Positions 7,639-11,313 of a stretch of DNA of 13,135 nt are shown one piece after another. The stretch spans positions 1 through 13,135 of the forward strand of contig UQNP01000039.1 of the NCBI GenBank assembly GCA_900542385.1, read 5' to 3'. Under the pieces are notes generated by a model, which was not told the origin of the DNA, did not search any database, and was given only the letters and a program-made list of their open reading frames with translations. The stretch is from an uncultured Eubacterium sp. Its GTDB lineage: Bacteria; Bacillota; Clostridia; Peptostreptococcales; Anaerovoracaceae. Each line of letters begins with the position of its first letter. Positions within the stretch are counted from its first letter, which is position 1. A program made the position numbers and the translations under genes.

Positions 7639-9234
7639 TCAGGATCGATATATGATTTTACCGTCTTTTACCGTACATTCAACTATCAAATTTTTTATAT
7701 CACTATCCGCACACTTTTCATATGAATCCGATAAAACGACGAAATTCGCCTTTTTCCCTGGCTCGAGACTTCCCTTTTCATTCTCTTCAAAAGCTGCATA
7801 TGCGCTGTTGTAAGTGAACATGCGCAGCGCCTGAGTCTTTGTGATTTTCTCTTTCTGACTTATTTTCTGCCCCGTGAAAGTTTCTCTGTTCACGGCAAGA
7901 TGTATACCGAGCAGAGGTTCTGAAAAAGTTATCGGACAGTCGCTGCTCCCGGCGCATATGATACCTTCGTCAAAAAATGTCCTGCATGTAAACATATGCT
8001 CTGTTCTTTCTTTTCCGTAATTTATCATGTATCCGTCTCCGAATTCATACAGAAATACAGGCTGCGGTATCGGAACCACTTGATTATTTTTTATCCTTTC
8101 AACCAGTTCATCGTTTACCATACCGCAATGCTCTATCCTGTGTCTGTGATTTTTTTTCGGATATTTTTCAAGAGCTTTCTCTATTGCTTCCAATATTGCC
8201 TTTACAGCTTTATCTCCTACAGCATGACACGTCACTTGAAATCCCGCTTTATGAGCTCTCAGGATGATATCGTCGATATCATCCTGCTCCATGCTCATTA
8301 TCCCACTGAATCCCGGATCACTTGTATAGGGCTCCAGCGTCGCCGCTGTCGGTCCGCTGCTGCTTCCGTCTATCATTATCTTTACAGGTCCTATGTTCAG
8401 TACGGTTTTACGCTGCGCTTCATCATATCCTTTCTCAATATATGAATTTATGAATTCCAGATTATTATTGAAAGAAAAAAGCATATTATATATGTCTACG
8501 TCCAGTTCATTTTTTTCTGTCATCTTTTCCATGACATGCATCTGCATCGGACCGTATCCTCCCGAATCATGCACACCGGTTATTCCCTGGGAAATCAGAA
8601 GATCATTTGCCGTTTTGATTCCTTTCCGCAGTTCTTCTTCTGTCGGCTCTGAAAACGAAACTATATTCATGTGAGCGTTTTCTTTCATAACACCGTTGAT
8701 TTTACCGTCGTCTCTTTCTATAACTCCGCCTTCAGGAGATTCTGTGTCTTCGGTTATTCCTGCAAGCTCAAGGCTTTTAGAGTTATGGACTGAAATATGC
8801 GAGCATGTTCTCGTTAAAATAACGGGGTTGTTCGGCGCTGCCTCATCCAGATCCCATCTGTTGGGATGCCTTTTTTCCTTAAGTTTTAAATGATCATATC
8901 CCCATCCTCTTATCCAGACACCGGGCGGCAGCCCTTTTGCCTTTTCTCTTATTTTTTCTTTTATATCCTCTATGCTCTTCACATACGGATATCTGCAGTC
9001 TATGGACAGCAGATTTATCCCCAGCACACCCATATGCAGATGCGCGTCTATAAAGCCGGGAACTATGCTTCTGCCTTCAAGGTCGATAATCTTTGTGCAA
9101 TCTCCTTTCAGATTCTTCGCATCATTTCCCACAGCTGCTATTCTGTCTCCGATAACCGCTATGGAATCAACTATACTGTCATTTTCATCAACAGTATGTA
9201 TTTCACCGTTAGTAAAAATATAATCTGCTTTCAT
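7639..9234 (-). CDS. YtcJ-like metal-dependent amidohydrolase (Amidohydro_3)
   Basis: This cytosolic metal hydrolase of 531 residues belongs to the amidohydrolase superfamily, Amidohydro_3/YtcJ branch, which includes N-substituted formamide deformylase. An N-terminal beta-sandwich part (YIFTNGEIHTVDE, 5-17) leads to the metal motif PGFIDAHLHMG with His65 and His67. Further likely metal or catalytic residues are His337 (CHAVGDKAV), His369 (HRIEHC) and Asp432 (SSDCPI). The C-terminus returns to the sandwich with GSLEPGKKANFVVL. There is no signal peptide. The ATG at 9234 has AAAGGA about 10 bases upstream. The gene begins 18 bases after the nitrilase-family stop, so it is the third gene of the sigma-54 operon. 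The likely role is hydrolysis of a C-N bond in a compound supplied or processed by its two neighbours; the exact substrate is unknown. No frameshift was seen. Confidence 0.9.
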   Translation of the reverse strand: MKADYIFTNGEIHTVDENDSIVDSIAVIGDRIAAVGNDAKNLKGDCTKIIDLEGRSIVPGFIDAHLHMGVLGINLLSIDCRYPYVKSIEDIKEKIREKAKGLPPGVWIRGWGYDHLKLKEKRHPNRWDLDEAAPNNPVILTRTCSHISVHNSKSLELAGITEDTESPEGGVIERDDGKINGVMKENAHMNIVSFSEPTEEELRKGIKTANDLLISQGITGVHDSGGYGPMQMHVMEKMTEKNELDVDIYNMLFSFNNNLEFINSYIEKGYDEAQRKTVLNIGPVKIMIDGSSSGPTAATLEPYTSDPGFSGIMSMEQDDIDDIILRAHKAGFQVTCHAVGDKAVKAILEAIEKALEKYPKKNHRHRIEHCGMVNDELVERIKNNQVVPIPQPVFLYEFGDGYMINYGKERTEHMFTCRTFFDEGIICAGSSDCPITFSEPLLGIHLAVNRETFTGQKISQKEKITKTQALRMFTYNSAYAAFEENEKGSLEPGKKANFVVLSDSYEKCADSDIKNLIVECTVKDGKIIYRS

Positions 9235-9252
9235 ATCATCACGATCCTTTAA

Positions 9253-10140
9253 TTACATTGGTAATTTTTCTTCTTCACTTCCAAGCATTTCGTCATAGTA
9301 ATCCGTCCTTCTGTCTCTGAACAGGACCGTATGATCACACCAGTTGTACTTTCTCGCATCGGTCATATTGCATTCACTGTATACCGTTTCTTCATCTGTA
9401 GGCGATGCTATTTTATCCGGTATTCCTCCCGGTCCTACTATCATGCTTCTTCCAGGAAAAGTTATTCCTCTTTCAGCACCAACTCTGTCAGCACATGCTA
9501 CAAACAATGCATTTGTATTTGCTGCCACCATCGCCATGTAAGGAGCCATCGTCTGAACATCATCCGGAAGCCCCTCGACTACAAGCCAGTTTGTAGGAAC
9601 GCATACTATATCCGCACCCTTAAGCGCACATATTCTCCACATTTCCGAAAACCACATATCATAACATATCAGAATACTTATTCTCCCTATTGGCGTATTC
9701 CATACCGGCACCCCGAGATCACCCGGCTCATACCACAGTTTGTCTTCATCCCATAAATGCATTTTTCTGTACTTTCCGATGTACCCGTCCGGGCCTATCA
9801 AAACAGCGGAATTGTACAGATTGTAATTTTCTTTTTCAATTATGCCTCCTACAATGTAAACATCTTTATCGGAAGCAAGTTTTTCCCAGCGCTTCACCGT
9901 ATTTCCAGCCGGAATCTCTTCGGCCATTTCCTCAGCTTCCTGCCTGCAGTTCCATACATACCCTGTAGTACAGCATTCCGGTAAAACTACGAGTTTTGCT
10001 CCGTTATCCGCTGCCTCGGATATCTTTTCATCTATTTTTTTCAGAGTTTCCTCCTTTTTTCCCATTTCATATGATATCTGTATCGCTGCCACTTTGATTC
10101 TATTTTCATTCCCATAAATTCTTTCTTTTTCAGTATACAT
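9253..10140 (-). CDS. Carbon-nitrogen hydrolase, nitrilase superfamily
   Basis: This cytosolic amidase or carbamoylase-type enzyme of 295 residues hydrolyses a non-peptide C-N bond through a thioester on Cys. The Glu-Lys-Cys triad is complete: Glu55 (VVLPECCTTGY), Lys126 (YRKMHLWDE) and Cys159 (ILICYDMWF). The overall pattern resembles aliphatic or omega-amidases and N-carbamoyl amidases rather than true nitrilases, but the exact substrate cannot be read from it. The frame is open to a GTG at 10161 that overlaps the transporter stop as GTGA. That reading would translate the strong AAGGAGG (10147-10153) as protein. The ATG at 10140, 6 bases downstream of AAGGAGG, is the better start and makes the N-terminus MYTEKERIYGNENRIKVAAIQ-like, with the family's first strand at 15-21. 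It is the second gene of the sigma-54 operon, 17 bases after the transporter. Confidence 0.9.
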   Translation of the reverse strand: MYTEKERIYGNENRIKVAAIQISYEMGKKEETLKKIDEKISEAADNGAKLVVLPECCTTGYVWNCRQEAEEMAEEIPAGNTVKRWEKLASDKDVYIVGGIIEKENYNLYNSAVLIGPDGYIGKYRKMHLWDEDKLWYEPGDLGVPVWNTPIGRISILICYDMWFSEMWRICALKGADIVCVPTNWLVVEGLPDDVQTMAPYMAMVAANTNALFVACADRVGAERGITFPGRSMIVGPGGIPDKIASPTDEETVYSECNMTDARKYNWCDHTVLFRDRRTDYYDEMLGSEEEKLPM

Positions 10141-10146
10141 TTTGAA

Positions 10147-10153: not shown

Positions 10154-10157
10154 AAAC

Positions 10158-11231
10158 TCACTTGCCTTGTTCTTCTTTTTTCAGTTCTTTCGCTATTGTC
10201 TCAGGTACTCCCCACTTCACAGGATCTATATAATGCATCTTTTTCATAACGTCTCTCGCAAGGAACGTGCCTATAGCCATAATTGCATAAGGGAATGCAG
10301 TGACCGCAGCGCCGAGAGCCGCGAACAGAGTCTGCATCCACAATGTCACGAACACCGATATTATCGCCAGTATCACACTCATCACAAACGATATCACAGA
10401 CATCTTATAGCCTCTTCCGAATATTGCCTGCATCAGAAGTATGGCATTGTACCCGTATAAGCCTATCATTATATTATCTAAGGAAAGACCCATCATCACA
10501 GCAACTGCTGTTGCCACCACGCTGGCAATCACTGCGGATATCGCATCTACTCTCGACGATATAACTACTGCCAGCAGATAGAGCATTCCTGACCAGATAT
10601 TCGCCTGCCATATTATTTCCGCCATATTGTTAAGTACGGCAGTAAAAAAGTCTCCTGCACTGCAGGCAGTCATCTGCGCGTTCTCCGCACCTAACGGCGC
10701 ATCCAGAAACGGTACAACTGAGGTAGTCGTATGCATGGTTCCAAGTTTCAAAGACGCCGGTATCAATACAAACAAAGTTATACAGTACGGAAGTGCCAGA
10801 CTCGGTACATTCCTCGTTGAAAATATTTTGTTGAGAGCTGCTGTGATGAGCACACACATTATCCCGGCTATAACAGCCAGTATTATCATTGCAACTGATA
10901 CAGACTGTCCCGGAAATATAAACAGCGGTATCCCCAGCCCTGCTAACGCTGCGTTGAATGTAAAAAGCCCCATTCTTATCACCAGCTTATCCGTACCGAT
11001 GATATAAGCAAACGCTGTAGCCGTTATGGCGGCGCACAGACCTGCTACCGCCTGTTCAAAAGAGCCTACAAAGCATCCTATTATCAATATAAGTCCCGAC
11101 CAGGGATTGTCGCTGAATGCAATCTGCCCAAAACCTGACAATAACGAATCAATAAATGCCACGAATTTATTTTTGTCTCCGAGCCTCTTGAATTCTGATA
11201 CAAGGGGGAAACGGCATGTCGCATAAGGCAT
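10158..11231 (-). CDS. Urea / short-chain amide transporter, UT family
   Basis: This integral membrane channel-like transporter of the UT family passes urea and small amides down their gradient. The 357-residue protein shows the family's internal duplication. The first half has GFGQIAFSDNPWSG (33-46) and GLFTFNAAL (88-96). The second half has QANIWSG (209-215) and GLYGYNAIL (257-265). About ten hydrophobic segments are visible, with charged tails at both ends. The frame is open to 11327, but that extension crosses the -24/-12 promoter at 11298-11313. The ATG at 11231 has AAAGGAGT (11238-11245) at 7-base spacing and is the true start. It is the first gene of the operon. The second half is more divergent (NIWSG rather than NPxxG-like), so selectivity may not be for urea itself. 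No urease gene is nearby. Confidence 0.88.
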   Translation of the reverse strand: MPYATCRFPLVSEFKRLGDKNKFVAFIDSLLSGFGQIAFSDNPWSGLILIIGCFVGSFEQAVAGLCAAITATAFAYIIGTDKLVIRMGLFTFNAALAGLGIPLFIFPGQSVSVAMIILAVIAGIMCVLITAALNKIFSTRNVPSLALPYCITLFVLIPASLKLGTMHTTTSVVPFLDAPLGAENAQMTACSAGDFFTAVLNNMAEIIWQANIWSGMLYLLAVVISSRVDAISAVIASVVATAVAVMMGLSLDNIMIGLYGYNAILLMQAIFGRGYKMSVISFVMSVILAIISVFVTLWMQTLFAALGAAVTAFPYAIMAIGTFLARDVMKKMHYIDPVKWGVPETIAKELKKEEQGK

Positions 11232-11297
11232 TATTCTACTCCTTTCAAACAAAACTACCATCAAAACATTTAATGCATGCATTCTGCATATAAATAA

Positions 11298-11313
11298 AGC
11301 AATAATCATGCCA
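11298..11313 (-). promoter_or_regulatory. Sigma-54 (-24/-12) promoter of the transporter-hydrolase operon
   Basis: The minus strand reads TGGCAT-GATTA-TTGCT, matching the consensus TGGCAC-N5-TTGCW in all but one base. The invariant GG and GC are correctly spaced. Transcription should start near 11287, leaving a leader of about 56 bases before the ATG at 11231. A sigma-54 activator gene lies immediately upstream. Confidence 0.85.

Follow-up and report, generated by a model that had tools for sequence, protein, structure and literature searches.

A stretch of 13,135 nt from an uncultured Eubacterium sp. (Anaerovoracaceae; GCA_900542385.1, contig UQNP01000039.1), referred to here as the window, carries on its minus strand a predicted sigma-54 operon for a urea-transporter-family channel (UT), a nitrilase-superfamily amidase (NIT) and a YtcJ-like (Amidohydro_3) metal-dependent hydrolase (AMH), preceded by a gene for a PAS-type sigma-54 activator. 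The architecture and its conservation, the intact active-site residues of both hydrolases and the altered filter of the channel can all be read from the sequence. The explanation favoured here, to which a probability of about 45% is assigned, is an inducible operon for scavenging organic nitrogen from amides or ureido compounds, in which a re-tuned UT channel feeds the amidase. It is put forward just as tentatively that a clade from gut anaerobes has turned the UT fold from a urea channel into a channel for another small solute, and that the window operon is the sigma-54-switched form of a channel-amidase pair undescribed in the literature searched. In this clade both threonines of the central filter are gone, and the UT genes often adjoin C-N hydrolase genes (10 of 19 loci) in place of urease genes.

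Results

A compact operon behind an activator gene

The four genes run in the order activator (12903-11506), UT (11231-10158), NIT (10140-9253) and AMH (9234-7639), with gaps of 17 bases between UT and NIT and 18 bases between NIT and AMH. In profile searches each product scored above its own Pfam cut-off: UT against PF03253 (E-value 1.1e-57), NIT against PF00795 (3.2e-54), AMH against PF07969 (1.2e-100) and the activator against PF00158 (2.1e-70). Start codons were chosen by eye from the ribosome-binding sites (ATG at 11231, 10140 and 9234 for UT, NIT and AMH), with AAGGAG ahead of UT, AAGGAGG ahead of NIT and a weaker AAAGGA ahead of AMH; the longer open reading frames of UT (from 11327) and NIT (from 10161) are in-frame extensions upstream of these starts. 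Profile matches and start inspection agree with the coordinates, gene calls and gaps given in a preliminary description of this DNA.

The activator (11506..12903, minus strand) combines a PAS domain (PF13426, PAS_9), a sigma-54 AAA+ domain (PF00158, Sigma54_activat) and a TyrR-type HTH_50 domain (PF18024). Judged by eye it begins at GTG 12903 or TTG 12900, after GGGAGG, and direct inspection of its translation finds a GAFTGA loop. Against the PrdR regulator model NF041552 it scored 366.6 bits, under the equivalog cut-off of 795.

The control region is kept in relatives

The 274 bases from the activator stop to the UT start hold a dyad, a hairpin and a -24/-12 site, and together look like an enhancer region with a sigma-54 promoter. 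The promoter, TGGCATGATTATTGCT (11298..11313, minus strand), has 0 mismatches to TGGCAYGNNNNTTGCW, and nowhere else in the window does this consensus occur exactly. Allowing as many as 2 mismatches gave 4 matches against 3.25 expected, so looser -24/-12 matches are at chance level. When the activator-UT stretch was dinucleotide-shuffled, an equally good site (GG-N10-GC kept) arose in 4 of 2000 shuffles for the window and in 8 and 24 of 2000 for two relatives. The candidate activator site is an enhancer-like perfect dyad with 11-bp arms, GTGCAAAAATG-N8-CATTTTTGCAC (11449..11478, minus strand), and between the activator gene and the promoter stands a terminator-like hairpin (11371..11400, minus strand; 13-bp perfect stem, 4-base loop, six T after; -19.7 kcal/mol), which probably ends the activator transcript. 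The preliminary description mentions neither the dyad nor the hairpin. With this promoter and an adjacent activator of the enhancer-binding type, the genes form a predicted sigma-54-dependent operon.

Two relatives, a Clostridiales Family XIII metagenome-assembled genome (MAG; L008) and an uncultured Firmicutes MAG (L002), repeat the arrangement: in each, a homologue of the activator (about 45% identity) comes first, followed by a motif, a -24/-12 site (TGGCACGATATTTGCG and TGGCACACAGATTGCG, respectively) and finally UT. The motif is related to that of the window and imperfect as a dyad in both, and the distance from motif to promoter ranges from 136 to 200 bases. The pattern TGCAANNNTGN{3,4}ATGTGCANNNTTGCA, which resembles the window dyad, was found once in each of two related genomes, G002 and G008, both times ahead of UT, and was absent from four other genomes searched; its reversed control never matched. 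As the pattern was derived from the same sequences, the test lies in its uniqueness and not in its presence. The tight unit of the preliminary description, with a promoter (seen at 11313-11298) ahead of three genes and directly downstream of a PAS sigma-54 activator, is supported by these relatives, L008 and L002 both keeping the order of activator, promoter and UT.

In a Spirochaetales locus with UT and NIT (L001), no -24/-12-type site was found in the 480 bases read, and only about 470 bases precede UT, so the presence of an activator there cannot be judged. On the same contig, after UT-NIT, a -24/-12-like site (10/12) at L001:3002 lies about 136 bases ahead of the open reading frame of an ammonium transporter.

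The channel lacks both filter threonines

UT (10158..11231, minus strand; 357 amino acids) scored 195.9 bits against PF03253 (cut-off 25), with the profile covered over almost its whole length, and 154.4 bits against the NCBIfam model urea_trans_yut (TIGR03441), under the equivalog cut-off of 274.6. It is identical to a segment of the bacterial urea channel dvUT (3k3f) at 85 of 319 aligned residues. The dvUT filter is described as L84, T130, L247 and T294 at Sm, E187, F190 and L293 at So, and F80 and L129 at Si (PMC4357013).

The equivalents of T130 and T294 in the window UT are A146 and A312. In an alignment (A1; n = 45) of the window UT with 44 of the 52 UT hits, position 146 is Ala in 31 rows, Ser in 12 and Val in 2, position 312 is Ala in 42, Gly in 2 and Ser in 1, and Thr occurs at either place in none of the 45; left out were P0121, which is the window's own, and the partial or distant P0129, P0150, P0160, P0166, P0167, P0171 and P0172. 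Thr is likewise missing from both places in 18 UTs taken from genome loci (at least three of these UTs repeat or nearly repeat rows of A1), whereas the 17 UTs used for comparison (dvUT, a single domain of the PDB sequence 'Urea transporter 2', eight from Bacillota and seven from plasmids) all have it at both. Other filter residues are mostly kept: the equivalents of the dvUT glutamine that we take to be Q24, of E187 and of L247 are found in 45/45, 38/45 and 45/45 rows (Q36 and E205 in the window), while that of F190 is Trp in 34/45.

In a quick FastTree phylogeny that omits the 'Urea transporter 2' row, a branch with support 100 splits the comparison UTs from the anaerobe clade, the misread row pl_L053 aside. 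Ten of the 11 NIT-linked rows (two pairs being the same protein twice) fall inside one supported set of 29 rows, with P0135 outside, and three adenine-deaminase-linked UTs fall on one side of a branch whose support is only 27.

Thr-to-Val changes in the filter of mammalian UTs mostly stop or reduce the transport of urea, water or NH3, according to PMC12171576, with single-site exceptions: in UT-B, one mutation of the first threonine abolished the transport of water and NH3 alone, and in UT-A2 another left an NH3 signal indistinguishable from that of the wild type. With the threonines gone and valine mutants mostly inactive or impaired, the premise that UT proteins pass urea, taken up by the preliminary description, does not simply carry over to the window UT or its clade, and it is undercut further by the score under the TIGR03441 cut-off. 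The window UT lacks the two Sm threonines that mark a urea-selective channel, and it has likely lost urea transport.

Two further observations concern UT loci elsewhere. A genome from the family of G008 carries another threonine-less UT directly ahead of ung-like and LysO-like genes (called by eye; L025:372-2945), as are found near the window operon; given these shared neighbours, the operon may have taken over the site of an older UT. A second UT in the genome G003 (L010/L026) is broken by 1 TAG and 3 TAA and lies near cytosine/purine-type permease and DUF554 genes.

Both hydrolases keep their active-site residues

NIT (9253..10140, minus strand; 295 amino acids) scored 184.4 bits against PF00795 and has the E-K-C catalytic residues, E55, K126, E138 and C159 being invariant in 29/29 sequences. 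AMH (7639..9234, minus strand; 531 amino acids) scored 338.7 bits against PF07969 and has the H-x-H, K, H, H, D ligands (H65, H67, K285, H337, H369 and D432), these six metal-ligand positions being invariant in 31/31; the alignments took chosen hits, 30 in A3 and 28 in A2, from 120 listed each. The two families of C-N hydrolase named in the preliminary description are present with intact active-site residues.

The nearest relative of NIT with a structure is an archaeal amidase solved with glutaramide, and carbamoylases are less alike. Relatives in two further Clostridia genomes adjoin arginine-biosynthesis-like genes (by eye) in one case and have no clear partner in the other, and nitrilase was mentioned nowhere among the listed matches in the metformin/guanylurea literature. 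The closest solved structures to AMH, 3igh and 3icj, are both uncharacterised. Some AMH relatives adjoin sodium symporters, and a paralogous module (L061:2772-7759) consists of a PAS sigma-54 activator, a hairpin, a near-consensus -24/-12 site, a YtcJ-like hydrolase, DUF3311 and a sodium symporter.

The channel-amidase pair recurs in few genomes

NIT follows UT at every one of the four loci with a UT that shares 49% identity or more with that of the window (the window itself, L008, G002 and L001). Contig C271 of G002 stops within NIT, which leaves three loci in which AMH can be judged, and in two of these, the window and L008, AMH follows NIT. UT and NIT lie on one contig in at least eight cases, by equal contig sizes (226271, 19602, 16757, 12085, 11849, 11160, 7968 and 6647; L001 and L008 are among them), and a contig shared by UT, NIT and AMH is seen in at least four (226271, 16757, 11160 and 6647); drawn from the 52 UT hits and the best 120 NIT and AMH hits, these counts are lower bounds and a proxy for adjacency. 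The preliminary description had made its reading depend on co-occurrence of the three genes in relatives, and such co-occurrence is seen.

Of 393 genomes drawn from the order, 7 matched the UT model; the figures were 13 of 349 for the family, 1 of 391 for the class (these three draws overlapping) and 1 of 7 for the order of G001. The NIT model at E 1e-70 matched 3 of 391. Thus the genes are rare, and UT is patchy. The host is probably a gut anaerobe, to judge from related records. In L001 UT-NIT precedes ammonium transporter and glutamate-synthase-type genes, a neighbourhood that fits nitrogen assimilation. Elsewhere, threonine-less UTs adjoin adenine-deaminase-like genes in either order (L005:3199-6099, L006:1569-4768 and L007:5197-8161), called by PF13382 in L005 and L006 and by eye in L007.

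The preliminary description had seen no urease. In the three genomes with UT-NIT (G001, G002 and G008), whose completeness is not stated, no urease alpha was found above the cut-off, G008 giving one weak match beneath it, nor was any found in a remaining 13 of the 18 genomes searched, all of them genomes other than that of the window. A pathway from urea through urease was rejected as first choice because the filter threonines are gone and urease alpha has no match above the cut-off in the UT-NIT genomes.

Downstream and flanking genes

A uracil-DNA glycosylase gene begins 37 bases after AMH with a sigma-70-like promoter of its own, TTGTTT-N17-TATAAT (window 7636-7608), and so need not be part of the operon. 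Genes for a LysO-type lysine exporter and AzlC/AzlD branched-chain amino acid transport also lie near the operon (window 4785-6919).

Discussion

The data allow a model in which, when an inducing signal is present, the activator would bind the dyad and open the -24/-12 promoter. UT would then admit a small, neutral, amide-like solute by diffusion, and not urea by the known mechanism, while NIT would hydrolyse the amide to an acid and ammonia and so maintain an inward gradient. The pairing would work as an AmiS/UreI-type channel is thought to serve its neighbouring amidase. The target of AMH, in the same compound or in a related one, would be an N-acyl, N-formyl or N-carbamoyl bond, and the nitrogen would end as ammonia for assimilation. 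What stands of the preliminary interpretation is the tight sigma-54-type unit with its two C-N hydrolases; the part left without support in its original form is UT as a passer of urea.

Several observations weigh against this scavenging model. The altered filter is no proof that urea transport is lost, since Ala is smaller than Val and one first-threonine valine mutant still passed urea (PMC12171576), and urease alpha was above the cut-off in G003 and G004, genomes in which UT lies beside a YtcJ-like gene. In a wider sample of 19 distinct clade loci (L001-L010, L021-L025 and L029-L032), some of which end early, NIT adjoins UT in only three; a C-N hydrolase gene of some kind lies beside UT in 10, counting L023 and L030 with an amidohydrolase gene pointing away (family scan for L023 only), and in nine there is none, in some by sequence end. 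The Spirochaetales locus L001 has UT-NIT without AMH. In a quick FastTree phylogeny the operon-linked AMHs are not one clade, at least four changes being needed, although the seven rows so labelled include that of the window, a 99% copy of it, and P0273, which is linked to UT by contig-size match only; joint inheritance of all three genes is therefore not claimed. Given this tree and L001, the successive cleavage of two C-N bonds of one compound, as first proposed, is possible and unproven.

The substrate of NIT is another such point. None of 11 listed NCBIfam equivalog families, covering nitrilase, AguB, formamidase and aliphatic amidase, was above its cut-off, the best score being 223.8 bits for NF040852 (cut-off 500). 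Plasmid relatives of NIT (42-50% identity; 1241 records match, of which 30 were listed and seven gave contexts) stand in mixed surroundings: two of the seven beside ABC (ATP-binding cassette) transporter and urease genes, the others with carbamoyl amidohydrolase and ABC genes, ABC alone, ABC and amidase, or ABC with M24 peptidase and glutamine-amidotransferase genes. As these contexts differ, no single NIT substrate follows, and inference of the substrate from them was dropped. An Enterobacter IncN plasmid (L038/L045) and an Ancylobacter plasmid (L034) each carry a nitrilase-family gene (43% and 50% identical to NIT), then a branched-chain-type ABC importer and urease beta/alpha, a cluster that is possibly amide- or urea-related.

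The strongest of the alternatives, though an unlikely one, is a ureido or carbamoyl pathway in which AMH and NIT would successively remove carbamoyl groups from a ureido compound, yielding NH3 and CO2, with UT serving a side product. Its attraction lies in the neighbours of AMH relatives: those in G002 adjoin an M20 enzyme of the hydantoinase/carbamoylase family (TIGR01879 and NF006771 above cut-off) and a YgeY-like M20 enzyme (276.2 bits, under the cut-off of 321), and a YtcJ paralogue in G008 adjoins an AguB-like enzyme (316.9 bits, under the cut-off of 410). In C. difficile the two ureido groups of 2,3-diureidopropionate are attributed to the Amidohydro_3 enzyme UacY and to YgeY (PMC12507026). 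Against the pathway, UacY is reported to be homologous to D-aminoacylase, and its kinship to AMH is putative. NIT, moreover, is closer to the glutaramide-binding amidase than to carbamoylases, and the operon is without a ring-opening or reductase partner gene.

More doubtful is an ammonia vent, in which the hydrolases would release NH3 and the threonine-less UT would serve as an exit or re-entry path for NH3 or some other neutral product. Bacterial membranes are readily permeable to NH3 unaided, which counts against it. Mammalian UTs do pass NH3, but this passage mostly needs the same threonines (PMC12171576). In its favour are the ammonium transporter gene after UT-NIT in L001 and the adenine-deaminase-like neighbours of clade UTs in L005, L006 and L007, enzymes that would release ammonia. 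Ordinary handling of urea that the pathway makes or uses is the least probable reading, for although UT is a clear PF03253 member with Q36 and E205 widely kept and G003 and G004 hold urease alpha alongside clade UTs, both Sm threonines are gone in 45/45 rows, the three UT-NIT genomes have no urease alpha above the cut-off, and we know of no urea-producing member of the NIT or AMH enzyme families.

The closest known systems resemble the operon in some parts and differ in others. The amidase-nitrilase group of P. horikoshii and P. abyssi (1j31, 3ivz and 6ypa, of which 3ivz is presumably from P. abyssi) is archaeal, and NIT falls under the NF040852 cut-off. AMH has the PF07969 profile and the six metal ligands of YtcJ-like/Amidohydro_3 hydrolases, the family to which NfdA, metalloBSH and UacY are assigned; metalloBSH is secreted and has 945 amino acids (PMC13081902) against 531. 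With the UT/SLC14 urea channels (dvUT, Yut, mammalian UT-A/UT-B) the window UT shares the fold family and, mostly, the Gln, Glu and Leu filter equivalents, but it differs in its Sm alanines, in the Trp of most of its clade and in its C-N hydrolase neighbours, whereas plasmid UTs are mostly found beside urease genes (4 of 5 with surrounding annotation, L048, L050, L051 and L052; 2 of 7 records are without annotation). The nearest working analogue of UT-NIT is the AmiS/UreI channel, whose gene likewise adjoins an amidase gene (PMC9420511 and PMC10392092). AmiS/UreI is listed as a family separate from UT (PMC10392092), and the window operon goes further, with a sigma-54 activator and an additional hydrolase that is metal-dependent.

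The preliminary description did not recognise the combination of UT, NIT, AMH and sigma-54 control as a described pathway, and a search of the literature, mostly of papers outside subscription, likewise gave no description of it among the matches listed. No such operon appears in the excerpted part of a study of organic-nitrogen use in nitrifiers (PMC12625717), and a literature search on the host family yielded nothing.

The Sm threonines largely account for passage through UT channels, and a natural clade that lacks them offers a convenient means of testing the role of the filter; of the whole proposal, the altered pore lends itself best to testing. The neighbours of the clade hint at a solute other than urea. 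If the scavenging model is true, the operon would give gut anaerobes an inducible, urease-free way to acquire or reuse the nitrogen of small amides or ureido compounds.

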